NCBI GenBank assembly: GCA_025062045.1
Contig: JANXAF010000012.1
Coordinates: 1 to 47,596 of the forward strand
Direction: 5' to 3'
From: Thermodesulfobacteriota bacterium
GTDB taxonomy: Bacteria > Desulfobacterota > Syntrophorhabdia > Syntrophorhabdales > JANXAF01
Length of the DNA: 47,596 nucleotides
In this document: positions 43,368-46,250 of the stretch, piece by piece
How positions within the stretch are numbered: position 1 is the stretch's first letter
How the letters are laid out: every line of letters starts with the position of its first letter
The notes under the pieces: generated by a model
Told to the model about the DNA's origin: nothing
The model's database searches: none
Seen by the model: the letters and a program-made list of their open reading frames with translations, nothing else
Made by a program: the position numbers and the translations under genes

Positions 43368-44156
43368 ATGAGCATGGATGAGATCTTAAAGTTTGTAATT
43401 CATTGCGTGAAGGAGTCGGGAAAAATACAAAGGAAATATTTTCAGAAAACCTTGCAGATTGAGCACAAAGGAAGCATAAATCTCGTCACCAATGTGGATT
43501 TGGAATGTCAGGAAAAGATAGTTTCCATGATTCGGTCCGAGTTTCCTGAGGACGATATCTTAAGCGAGGAAGGTACTAACACAATCTCTTCCGCCAAAAG
43601 GAAGTGGATAATAGATCCGTTGGATGGAACAACAAATTATGCACATGGCTACCCGTTCTTTTGCACGTCCATCGCGTGCGAAATGGACGGAGAGCTTTAC
43701 GCGGGGGCAATCTACAATCCGATACATGAAGAGTTATTTTACGCAAAGAAAGGCTATGGTTCATATCTTAACGGGGAAAGGATAAGAGTCTCATCCATAT
43801 CGGATATATCCATCGCATTACTTAGCACAGGATTTCCTTACGATCTCGCAACTAGTAAAAGAAACAATATCGACAACTTTTTGAGATTTATTTTTAAGGC
43901 ACAGGCCATACGTAGGGACGGTTCTGCTGCACTTAACCTTGCCTATGTGGCAGCCGGTATATTCGATGGGTTTTGGGAGATAAAACTTAACCCCTGGGAC
44001 GTCGCAGCTGGAACATTGCTCGTAATGGAAGCAGGTGGTAGGGTTACAGATTTTTCTGGAAACCCGATAGACATTTACAAGGACGAAATTCTGGCATCTA
44101 ACGGGATCATTCACAAACAGATGCTAGAGATATTAAACTCTAGAGAGTCAAGGTGA
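43368..44156 (+). CDS. suhB: Inositol monophosphatase-family protein SuhB
   Basis: This 262-residue Mg2+-dependent phosphatase has the family motifs: Glu in LSEEGT (63-70), DPLDGTTNY (83-91) and the C-terminal NPWDVAAGTLLVMEAGG. E. coli SuhB also acts in rRNA antitermination with Nus factors; this role cannot be judged here. Substrates may be inositol-1-phosphate or fructose-1,6-bisphosphate. The start may be ATG 43368 or ATG 43374; no strong Shine-Dalgarno distinguishes them. The 3' end overlaps the V4R gene (GTGA). Confidence 0.93.
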   Translation: MSMDEILKFVIHCVKESGKIQRKYFQKTLQIEHKGSINLVTNVDLECQEKIVSMIRSEFPEDDILSEEGTNTISSAKRKWIIDPLDGTTNYAHGYPFFCTSIACEMDGELYAGAIYNPIHEELFYAKKGYGSYLNGERIRVSSISDISIALLSTGFPYDLATSKRNNIDNFLRFIFKAQAIRRDGSAALNLAYVAAGIFDGFWEIKLNPWDVAAGTLLVMEAGGRVTDFSGNPIDIYKDEILASNGIIHKQMLEILNSRESR

Positions 44157-44602
44157 AGGAGTATACTCTTTCCGACATAAAGAAGATAGTAAGACCGCGA
44201 TTAGGTGCGGATGTTCCGCTCGAGCTTTTTCGAGTATTGAGGATAATAGGCATGAGAAACCTCCTTGGAGAGAGCGCAGGACCGGCTCTATATATGATGG
44301 GAAAAGAAGTCGGCTCAATGTTCACACCCAAAACAGAAGAAGACATTGTTAGTGTCGTCAAAGATTTGCGGATCGGCATACCTGAAGTAGAGAGAATCGA
44401 CGAAAACCGTTACACCGTGAAACTCTACGAGTGTATCACTTGCGCCGGTTTTCCTGTGACAGGAGAAATGTTTTGTGATATGGAAAGCGGGATCCTTGCG
44501 GGACTTTTTGAGAAAGTGACCGGCAAAAAGGCAAAATCAACCCAGACAAAGAGCTGGTCCGTAGGTTACAATTACTGCGAATTCGACATCATCCTTTACT
44601 GA
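44153..44602 (+). CDS. V4R-domain small-molecule-binding protein
   Basis: This 149-residue single-domain protein matches the V4R (4-vinyl reductase) fold, a ligand- and sometimes metal-binding sensor domain found in XylR/DmpR-type regulators and BchJ. The core is visible: YECITCAGFPVTGEMFC, ESGILAGLFEKVTGKK and YNYCEFDI, with Cys94, Cys97, Cys108 and Cys142. The Cys normally found in the KCW segment is Ser134 here. The start is GTG overlapping the suhB stop. It is 8 nt upstream of a soluble histidine kinase and probably supplies its sensory input. Confidence 0.78.
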   Translation: MKEYTLSDIKKIVRPRLGADVPLELFRVLRIIGMRNLLGESAGPALYMMGKEVGSMFTPKTEEDIVSVVKDLRIGIPEVERIDENRYTVKLYECITCAGFPVTGEMFCDMESGILAGLFEKVTGKKAKSTQTKSWSVGYNYCEFDIILY

Positions 44603-44610
44603 GACTTCCA

Positions 44611-45510
44611 GTGGAAGACGAGATTCGTGAACTAGTAAAAAACAAAGAAAGACTCGAACTAGTCATATCGGAAGAAAAAGAGCTCTCCGAAGTAAGAAGG
44701 AAACTATTGGAAAAAAGTCTTAAGGAAATGGAAGAGCTTTATGCCTCACTCAAAGAAAAACTTGAAGATTTAAAGCAAAAAGATTTGAAAATAAGGGAAA
44801 TCGCTGAGAAACTTGAAAGAGCGAACAAGCTCTCTCTTATGGGAGAAATAACCGGGGCCATAGCGCATCAGATAAAAAATCCTCTTATCGCAATCCAAGG
44901 CTTCGCAAAAAGAATCCAGGATACCGAAAACTTGGACAAAATCAAATCCTACGCGAAGATCATACTGGAGTCCGCAGAAAAGCTAACGGAGGTTCTATCA
45001 AGACTTTTAGAATTTTCGCGAATGGAGAACCCAAAGAAAGAATGGATAAACATCAATCGGTTAATTTTGGACACACTTGGATTTTTTGAACACCATCTTA
45101 CACGGTTTAAAAAAATCGAACTTAATCTCGAACTTGCTGAAAACCTTCCGGATCTACATGTCGACAAGATTCATATCCAACAGGTTCTTGCAAATCTTCT
45201 AGTGAATGCGGCTCAGGCTATGCCGGATGGAGGGCCTATAGTTATAAAGACCGGTAAGGACGATGAAGGTGTTTACTTTGCCGTGATTGACAGGGGCAAA
45301 GGAATTCCGGAAGAGGTGCGAGATAAGTTATTTGAACCTTTTTACACCACTAAGCCCAAAAACGAGGGTACCGGTTTAGGTCTTGCTATCTGCAAAAGGC
45401 TTGTGGAGGCAAATGGGGGCCGAATAAGTTTTGAGACCGAAGAAGGCCGCGGTACTAAATTTTTCGTTCATTTCCCTGTGGGTCAGAACTCAAACTCCAT
45501 ACCGTCGTAA
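44611..45510 (+). CDS. Soluble sensor histidine kinase
   Basis: This 299-residue cytoplasmic kinase has no membrane segment. A charged coiled coil (about 10-72) leads to the HisKA domain with phospho-acceptor His86 in AHQIKNPL and the HATPase_c domain: N-box Asn199 in LLVNAAQAM, DRGKGIPEE (227-235), FEPFYTTK and GTGLGLAI (253-260). The start is GTG 44611. No response regulator is adjacent. It follows the V4R gene, so the sensor and kinase may form a split sensory unit. Its last 28 nt overlap the 3' end of the convergent MBL gene. Confidence 0.92.
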   Translation: MEDEIRELVKNKERLELVISEEKELSEVRRKLLEKSLKEMEELYASLKEKLEDLKQKDLKIREIAEKLERANKLSLMGEITGAIAHQIKNPLIAIQGFAKRIQDTENLDKIKSYAKIILESAEKLTEVLSRLLEFSRMENPKKEWININRLILDTLGFFEHHLTRFKKIELNLELAENLPDLHVDKIHIQQVLANLLVNAAQAMPDGGPIVIKTGKDDEGVYFAVIDRGKGIPEEVRDKLFEPFYTTKPKNEGTGLGLAICKRLVEANGGRISFETEEGRGTKFFVHFPVGQNSNSIPS

Positions 45511-46250
45511 GCAGCTATCACTTCAATTCCTGTTGCTCTTTTTACTTCTTCCGCAATAGTGTGCGGTTTTTGTCGGATAAGACTCATTCCGAAATGCGTC
45601 ATAATTGCTGTCTTTGGCCTGATTTTTTCTATGAGTCTTTTGAAGTCCTCTACGGATAAATGATCAATTTCCTCGTTCTTTTCTATAGGCTTTAGCCTTA
45701 AAACATTTACAATAAGGACATCGCAGCTGTAATACTGGGGTAGGTCTTCGAAGTATTTAGTATCGGAAACTAAACCGATTTTTACACCCAAATCGAACAA
45801 AAGACCATACGTTTCGACAGGATGAATGTGTCTTACGGGTGTAGTAAGAACGATATCCGCAATCCGGTAGGTCTTCCCTTCTTCCATGATTTCAACTCTT
45901 TCAAGTTTCTTTGAAAAACTTGAAAAAATTACAGGTTCGCCGATGATGGCGTCCTTTGGGCACAAAAGAACGCCCCTCTTTCTGAATCCTCCTTCCGTCA
46001 TAGCTTCAATTAGGACATTTGCATCGCTTGAGTGGTCTAGGTGTCTATGTGTCAAGATAAGACCGTCCAGTTGCTCAGGTTCCAAATTCTTTTTCGAAGC
46101 CCTTATTTTGACGATTGCGCCAGGACCAGGATCTATATAAACGTTCGTGTTTTTGTAATTTAACCAGAGCCCTGCTGTGGCCCGAAGCTGTTTTGAAAGT
46201 ACAAATCTTGCGCCTCCAGTTCCTAAAAATTTTATAAAACCATCAGCCAT
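45483..46250 (-). CDS. MBL-fold hydrolase (RNase Z/PhnP-like)
   Basis: This 255-residue metallo-beta-lactamase-fold protein begins GFIKFLGTGGARF, the start found in RNase Z, PhnP and related phosphodiesterases. The metal motif HRHLDH (68-73) is followed by a His in RHIHPVET, the Asp in LVSDTKYF and a His in MTHFGMS. It is a likely phosphodiesterase; specific substrate unknown. It has its own consensus promoter on the minus strand. Confidence 0.85.
   Translation of the reverse strand: MADGFIKFLGTGGARFVLSKQLRATAGLWLNYKNTNVYIDPGPGAIVKIRASKKNLEPEQLDGLILTHRHLDHSSDANVLIEAMTEGGFRKRGVLLCPKDAIIGEPVIFSSFSKKLERVEIMEEGKTYRIADIVLTTPVRHIHPVETYGLLFDLGVKIGLVSDTKYFEDLPQYYSCDVLIVNVLRLKPIEKNEEIDHLSVEDFKRLIEKIRPKTAIMTHFGMSLIRQKPHTIAEEVKRATGIEVIAAYDGMEFEF

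Follow-up and report, generated by a model that had tools for sequence, protein, structure and literature searches.

The window, a 47,596-nucleotide stretch of DNA from a bacterium of the order Syntrophorhabdales, contains a gene for a stand-alone V4R protein that lies between a suhB-like gene and a gene for a soluble histidine kinase (Table 1). The V4R reading frame starts with a GTG at 44153, overlaps the suhB stop by 4 nt and ends with a TGA at 44600–44602; the kinase frame starts with a GTG at 44611, and these coordinates agree with the 8-nt gap between the two genes that an earlier note on this DNA had described. The genome to which the window belongs (1.76 Mb in 29 contigs) has 25 receiver matches and 20 HATPase matches, and the window protein is its sole V4R match. 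None of the 25 receiver matches lies on the window's contig, so the note was also right that no response regulator is adjacent.

Table 1. Coordinates of genes and sequence features at the V4R–kinase locus (window numbering)
Feature	Position	Strand	Evidence or remark
suhB-like gene, inositol monophosphatase family	43368..44156	+	Pfam Inositol_P, 4.9e-66
Stand-alone V4R gene, 149 aa, proposed sensor	44153..44602	+	Pfam V4R, 6.6e-14; MJ1460, Z 14.9
CxxC codons, Cys94-Ile-Thr-Cys97	44432..44443	+	Invariant in 21/21 aligned orthologs
Cys108 codon, equivalent by spacing to DmpR zinc ligand C151	44474..44476	+	21/21; spacing from PMC7264223 (partial text)
Ser134 codon, equivalent by spacing to DmpR zinc ligand C177	44552..44554	+	Ser in 21/21
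Cys142 codon, equivalent by spacing to DmpR zinc ligand C185	44576..44578	+	21/21
Soluble histidine kinase, 299 aa: coiled coil, HisKA, HATPase_c	44611..45510	+	
Kinase N-terminal coiled coil, proposed V4R docking element	44611..44835	+	Coiled-coil profile, G139 E 5e-7
H-box codons, His86-Gln87	44866..44871	+	Gln here and in G002; Glu in the 34 remaining distinct orthologs
HATPase_c domain; N, G1, F and G2 boxes intact	45163..45483	+	Profile match; alignment
MBL-hydrolase-type gene (putative)	45483-46250	convergent	After kinase

V4R domains occur commonly in both bacteria and archaea, and few of their signals are known. Residues 89–146 of the window protein match Pfam V4R with 52.2 bits against a cut-off of 31 (E 6.6e-14), and the protein also matches DUF2507 (E 4.8e-9). 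Its structure model (pLDDT 78.5) has the V4R/Bet3 fold: the best match is MJ1460 (Z 14.9, rmsd 2.5 over 109 residues), PoxR, MopR and DmpR give Z 12.4–13.7, TRAPP subunits including Thor-TRAPPC3 give Z of about 8.5–11, and there is a modest likeness to H-NOX (Z 8.3). Pfam detected no further domain, AAA+ or DNA-binding, within the 149 residues, and the NCBIfam model for MsvR gave 50.7 bits against a cut-off of 220, matching the V4R part alone.

Cys94, Cys97, Cys108, Cys142, Ser129, Gln131 and Ser134 are invariant among the 21 orthologs (of 36) that were aligned. Several proteins of similar fold have functional cysteines: the zinc ligands of DmpR are C151, E172, C177 and C185 (PMC7264223, partial text), MsvR has conserved C206, C232 and C240 (PMC3729527, partial text), the corresponding residues of V. 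cholerae H-NOX are C149, Q171, C174 and C182 (PMC7108781, partial text), and the zinc of Thor-TRAPPC3 is held by four cysteines (PMC10933270, partial text). In the window protein, Ser134 and Cys142 are 8 residues apart and Cys108 and Cys142 are 34 apart, like C177/C185 and C151/C185 of DmpR; by the same reckoning Ser129 takes the place of DmpR E172, and H-NOX Q171 corresponds to Gln131. The window protein thus keeps two of the DmpR ligands as Cys108 and Cys142 and has serine at the other two places, and the earlier remark that a normally conserved cysteine is Ser134 is correct as judged by the spacing to Cys142. Thor-TRAPPC3 has Cys at all four aligned places and Ser at 134, in a weak alignment (E 1.3). 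On this pattern of conservation, we consider it likely that Cys94, Cys97, Cys108 and Cys142 form a rearranged four-cysteine metal site.

The earlier note had guessed at an aromatic, lipid or metal/heme ligand. The window protein has no histidine and a single tryptophan (residue 135), it lacks counterparts of DmpR His100 and Trp128, and it gave no match to the HNOB domain up to E 1. We therefore rejected heme sensing of the H-NOX type, because there is neither a histidine nor an HNOB match, and phenol sensing of the DmpR type, because histidine is absent, Trp135 is the only tryptophan, and the zinc ligands differ; to that extent the ligand guess is unsupported.

The kinase matches HisKA (1.4e-13) and HATPase_c (1.2e-29), and Pfam found no sensory domain in it. 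Because its maximum hydropathy over 19 residues is 0.85, it has no transmembrane segment, and its AlphaFold model (pLDDT 77.4) consists of one helix spanning residues 2–104 followed by the kinase core. All of this matches the earlier description of a coiled coil, HisKA and HATPase with no membrane or sensory domain. The H-box reads AHQIKNPL in the window and in G002, whereas 34 further distinct orthologs have AHEIKNPL. The residue beside the phosphoacceptor histidine of the window's kinase is thus not acidic; among 18 H-boxes picked by pattern in the kinases of the window's genome and five related genomes, this is the only one with Gln. Asn90, at H+4, is invariant, and Asn or Thr at this position serves phosphatase activity (PMC3510030, partial text). 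According to the same partial text, CrdS E372Q lost kinase activity and kept phosphatase activity, NtrB E140Q is kinase-minus and phosphatase-plus by phenotype, and E-to-A substitutions in HK853, HK4262 and HK1190 abolished autokinase activity; Glu249 of CpxA has been described as a general base (PMC3904827, partial text). The change from Glu to Gln makes the autokinase activity of the window's copy doubtful, and Gln in the H-box with Asn kept at H+4 predicts a phosphatase-biased enzyme, without autokinase activity, in the window's family. The window's kinase thus combines Gln at H+1 with Asn at H+4 as in CrdS E372Q and NtrB E140Q, but its substitution is natural, whereas those are laboratory mutants. 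From the sequence, autokinase activity has probably been lost in this copy, which by analogy with the mutants may be a V4R-controlled phosphatase. The earlier note had mentioned neither this H-box change nor the CxxC that accompanies the missing V4R cysteine.

The V4R gene is present in 36 of 46 genomes of the window's order. suhB lies directly upstream at all 36 loci, and the kinase gene lies directly downstream on the same contig at 35; at the 36th (G023) the kinase opens another contig right behind the V4R C-terminus. (The G031 locus was read from a matching contig, L058.) The adjacency of V4R and kinase that the earlier note proposed to look for in relatives is therefore conserved throughout, once across a contig break, and its rival suggestion, that V4R goes with suhB instead, does not separate cleanly, as V4R adjoins both genes. 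The orthologs are 61–78% (V4R) and 47–66% (kinase) identical to the window's proteins. With starts picked by script at 34 loci for each gap, the spacing is −4 to 90 nt from suhB to V4R and −14 to 40 nt from V4R to kinase, and a 1-nt stop–start overlap occurs in 13 of 34 loci. Of 30 loci, the window included, 3 have receivers in the flanking sequence retrieved, and none has one inside the trio.

Among 119 genomes (the window's own included), V4R matches at the level of the orthologs (61–78% identity) were restricted to the order; all others were at most 36% identical, with one exception, a contig-end piece of 32 residues that belongs to an ortholog. When 395 genomes of the phylum were searched with a profile, one further V4R outside the order appeared, in G139. 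Two peptide patterns retrieved 29 named loci, of which 8 are labelled Syntrophorhabdus, Syntrophorhabdaceae or Syntrophorhabdales and the remainder mostly "Deltaproteobacteria" or similar; one (L056) is labelled Spirochaetae, which we read as a misplaced contig.

Ten of the 46 genomes have no such V4R. In three of them (G015 and G036, of one genus, and G019), the MBL gene directly follows suhB at a distance of 13, 9 and 261 nt, respectively, and V4R and kinase are both absent between; the joint deletion is resolved only in these. In G009 (L083:1-301), the beginning of the kinase gene comes after suhB, with V4R missing between them, and the contig ends there. The kinase fragment, which covers the coiled coil and the approach to the H-box, is 39.7% identical over residues 16–78 (E 6e-11). 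No V4R was found elsewhere in G009, which is 75% complete, so either the V4R gene sits in the missing part of the genome or its kinase manages without V4R. No other result speaks against an inseparable V4R–kinase pair, and because of this one we lowered our estimate that the two form a functional pair slightly, to one that is still high. Of the other V4R-less genomes, G032 and G037 have a contig break inside the MBL gene, and neither suhB nor MBL was found in G001, G003, G041 and G045. A search of all ten for the kinase at a limit of E 1e-40 returned only other kinases, 32–37% identical; this search cannot exclude partial kinases, because the G009 fragment escaped it.

The closest V4R outside the order, that of G139, has 45% identity across 149 residues, with the four cysteines, Gln131 and Ser134 all conserved. 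The frame that follows it encodes a coiled coil, a GAF domain and a GGDEF domain and overlaps the V4R stop by 4 nt, although an ATG start is also found about 20 nt further on. The upstream gene encodes a GAF-HD protein (HD-GYP), and the 3.9-kb contig contains no suhB. A profile of the coiled coil, made from residues 1–72 of the window's kinase and 19 orthologs, matched the G139 GGDEF protein with E 5e-7 (7e-9 for its first 90 residues alone); the best of 1899 background segments reached 0.079, and none of 200 shuffles reached E 1. As the same N-terminal coiled coil accompanies V4R while the output differs, the constant part of the system would seem to be V4R plus coiled coil, with the output swap known from this one contig.

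V4R genes precede signaling enzymes elsewhere too. Hybrid or soluble kinases directly follow second, distant V4Rs within the order (L068, L073, L074) and V4Rs found elsewhere (L067, L192, L212, L221); another V4R (L070) is about 330 nt from a kinase, L075 precedes a GGDEF protein, and L069 precedes a SpoIIE-type protein. The partners of L067, L068, L069, L073, L075, L212 and L221 have in common a HAMP-like stretch before the hybrid kinase, GGDEF or SpoIIE part, and Pfam HAMP was matched, weakly, in L221 and L070 only. A fusion of V4R with HisKA, for which the earlier note had suggested a search, is found in L234, as XylR_N-V4R-HisKA-HATPase-REC-HATPase.

Outside the order, 3 of 58 sampled stand-alone V4Rs have a kinase (HATPase) as same-strand neighbor. 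This sample is non-random: it consists of best-scoring short frames, leaves out the V4R-rich family f16 and omits previously fetched genomes, several of which have kinase, GGDEF or SpoIIE neighbors. Kinases were spotted with a home-made profile of 14 kinases of the window's genome, which recovers five known V4R-adjacent kinases and one more. We thus rejected V4R beside a kinase as a general rule, and on 3 of 58 in such a sample the arrangement is a recurrent but minority context. The earlier statement that V4R usually shares a chain with its output does not hold here: among the matches listed outside the order, 114 of 132 are in open frames of at most 300 aa, as are 78 of the 92 listed when f16 is left out. 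Four f16 genomes (G058, G095, G130, G158) have at least 15 V4R matches each. In L178, L179, L191, L176, L199 and others outside the order, a stand-alone V4R directly follows a frame of about 437 aa; by eye, that of L178 resembles the large membrane subunit of a TRAP transporter and stands behind binding-protein-like and small membrane frames. In the literature, searched without most subscription papers, we found among the matches listed no paper on a kinase or cyclase that has a stand-alone V4R as its partner.

The closest well-studied precedent for a sensor and kinase in separate chains is H-NOX/HnoK, in which a separate sensor inhibits the neighboring kinase, oxidation of the zinc-site cysteines is one trigger, and H-NOX also serves c-di-GMP enzymes (PMC7108781, PMC12329717, partial texts). 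The V4R–kinase locus likewise encodes a soluble sensor candidate of similar outline fold beside a kinase without a sensor domain, and its proposed cysteine site has the 8-residue spacing of the H-NOX zinc site, whose oxidation activates the sensor; the G139 V4R may similarly serve a GGDEF protein. Unlike H-NOX, the V4R protein has no heme histidine or HNOB match and has a different set of cysteines, and the kinase of the window's family has the H-box Gln. DmpR, PoxR and MopR share the fold and the matching cysteine spacing, but they are fused to a sigma-54 activator, whereas the window protein stands alone, has Ser at two of the four zinc-ligand places and lacks the phenol-contacting His and Trp. 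The V4R domain of MsvR from methanogens has conserved cysteines that govern a redox response (PMC3729527, partial text); in contrast to MsvR, the window protein has no DNA-binding domain, falls well below the MsvR cut-off and has its output on another polypeptide. Thor-TRAPPC3 and MJ1460 are stand-alone V4R folds like the window protein, Thor-TRAPPC3 with the weakly aligned cysteines described above. We know of no kinase partner of either.

The mechanism that we infer would have the V4R protein as input, with a cavity-forming fold and a metal probably held by Cys94, Cys97, Cys108 and Cys142. After docking on the coiled coil at the N terminus of the enzyme encoded downstream, it would switch that enzyme in trans, just as H-NOX controls HnoK. 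The output would be an ordinary HisKA kinase in most of the order, and in the window's family a phosphatase acting on a response regulator phosphorylated by another kinase. The signal could be thiol redox, a hydrophobic ligand or both. That V4R and kinase form a functional pair is very probable, and they probably work together in the manner of H-NOX/HnoK; docking through the coiled coil is probable; for the model as a whole our confidence is only slightly on the favorable side. The earlier proposal of a split sensor stands as far as the pair behaves as a unit, in view of the 36 of 36 loci, the joint loss in two genera, the other V4R genes beside kinase, GGDEF and SpoIIE proteins, the output swap and the fusion, with G009 pulling the other way. 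What is unusual about the pair is the output swap and the H-box change. Tentatively, V4R and its cognate coiled coil may form a trans-acting input module that is plugged onto a HisKA kinase or a diguanylate cyclase. With V4R in the role of H-NOX, the module would parallel both H-NOX/HnoK and the pairing of H-NOX with c-di-GMP enzymes; it would sense through a rearranged cysteine metal site, and in one lineage its kinase would have turned into a dedicated phosphatase. The conserved V4R–kinase pair, for which an output swap and natural deletions are at hand, offers two proteins that can be tested together in vitro, and it links V4R proteins to signaling of the H-NOX type; if the phosphatase-only role is true, it would be a natural case of a kinase/phosphatase separation described from mutants in the papers cited here.

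The strongest competitor, a serious possibility even if we would not bet on it, is that the V4R cavity senses a hydrophobic small molecule (acyl, aromatic or another metabolite) that drives the partner, and the cysteines hold a structural zinc only. Bet3, with palmitate, and PoxR, with phenols, use the cavity, and the zinc site of the Asgard protein tethers sheet and helix (PMC10933270, partial text); the V4R model matches proteins of the Bet3/PoxR type (Z about 9–14). The missing counterparts of DmpR His100 and Trp128, in a protein with no His and one Trp, speak against this. A tie of V4R to suhB, or to both neighbors, with the kinase merely co-transcribed, is very unlikely. The constant presence of suhB upstream and the suhB–kinase remnant of G009 fit it, but in G015, G036 and G019 suhB persists in the absence of both V4R and kinase, no suhB was found beside the V4R–kinase pair on L056, and the G139 V4R sits with HD-GYP and GGDEF genes on a contig without suhB.

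Two further alternatives concern the window's family in particular. That its kinase is an ordinary active one and Gln87 harmless is rather unlikely: all other boxes are intact and the G002 kinase is 66% identical, but the E-to-Q phenotypes of CrdS and NtrB, the E-to-A results in HK853, HK4262 and HK1190 (PMC3510030, partial text) and the general-base role described for CpxA Glu249 (PMC3904827, partial text) argue otherwise. We think it improbable that the pair is instead decaying there, with kinase activity lost and the locus gone from G001. Gln87 occurs in two genomes, and G001 (98% complete) has no suhB, V4R or MBL match; against decay, the frames of G000 and G002 are intact and their V4R and kinase proteins are 78% and 66% identical, respectively.

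A controlled phosphatase would act on a regulator encoded elsewhere, and the earlier note had advised looking for orphan response regulators. Orphan receivers are present, but co-occurrence pointed to no partner. One, P0004, is a 415-aa receiver–LpxC fusion (L087:592-1839, equivalent to G000 contig C6:52977-54221, outside the window; Response_reg 8.7e-33, LpxC 6.8e-77). No kinase was found on its contig, 42 of the 46 genomes of the order have a match over both domains, and no such fusion appeared by title among the literature matches listed. With this orphan in the genome, lipid sensing that feeds LpxC looked attractive; we rejected the fusion as obligate partner because all 10 V4R-less genomes keep it, which leaves room for a looser link. 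P0007 (27 of 36 genomes with V4R, 6 of 10 without; Fisher p 0.43) and P0005 (30 of 36 and 8 of 10) showed no association either. The profiling covered these three of a set of orphans to which P0006, P0008 and others also belong. In a cluster of three receiver genes, L100:574-1845 (G000 contig C4, about 160754-161083) places a receiver before a membrane part that, by eye, is of the formate/nitrite-transporter type.
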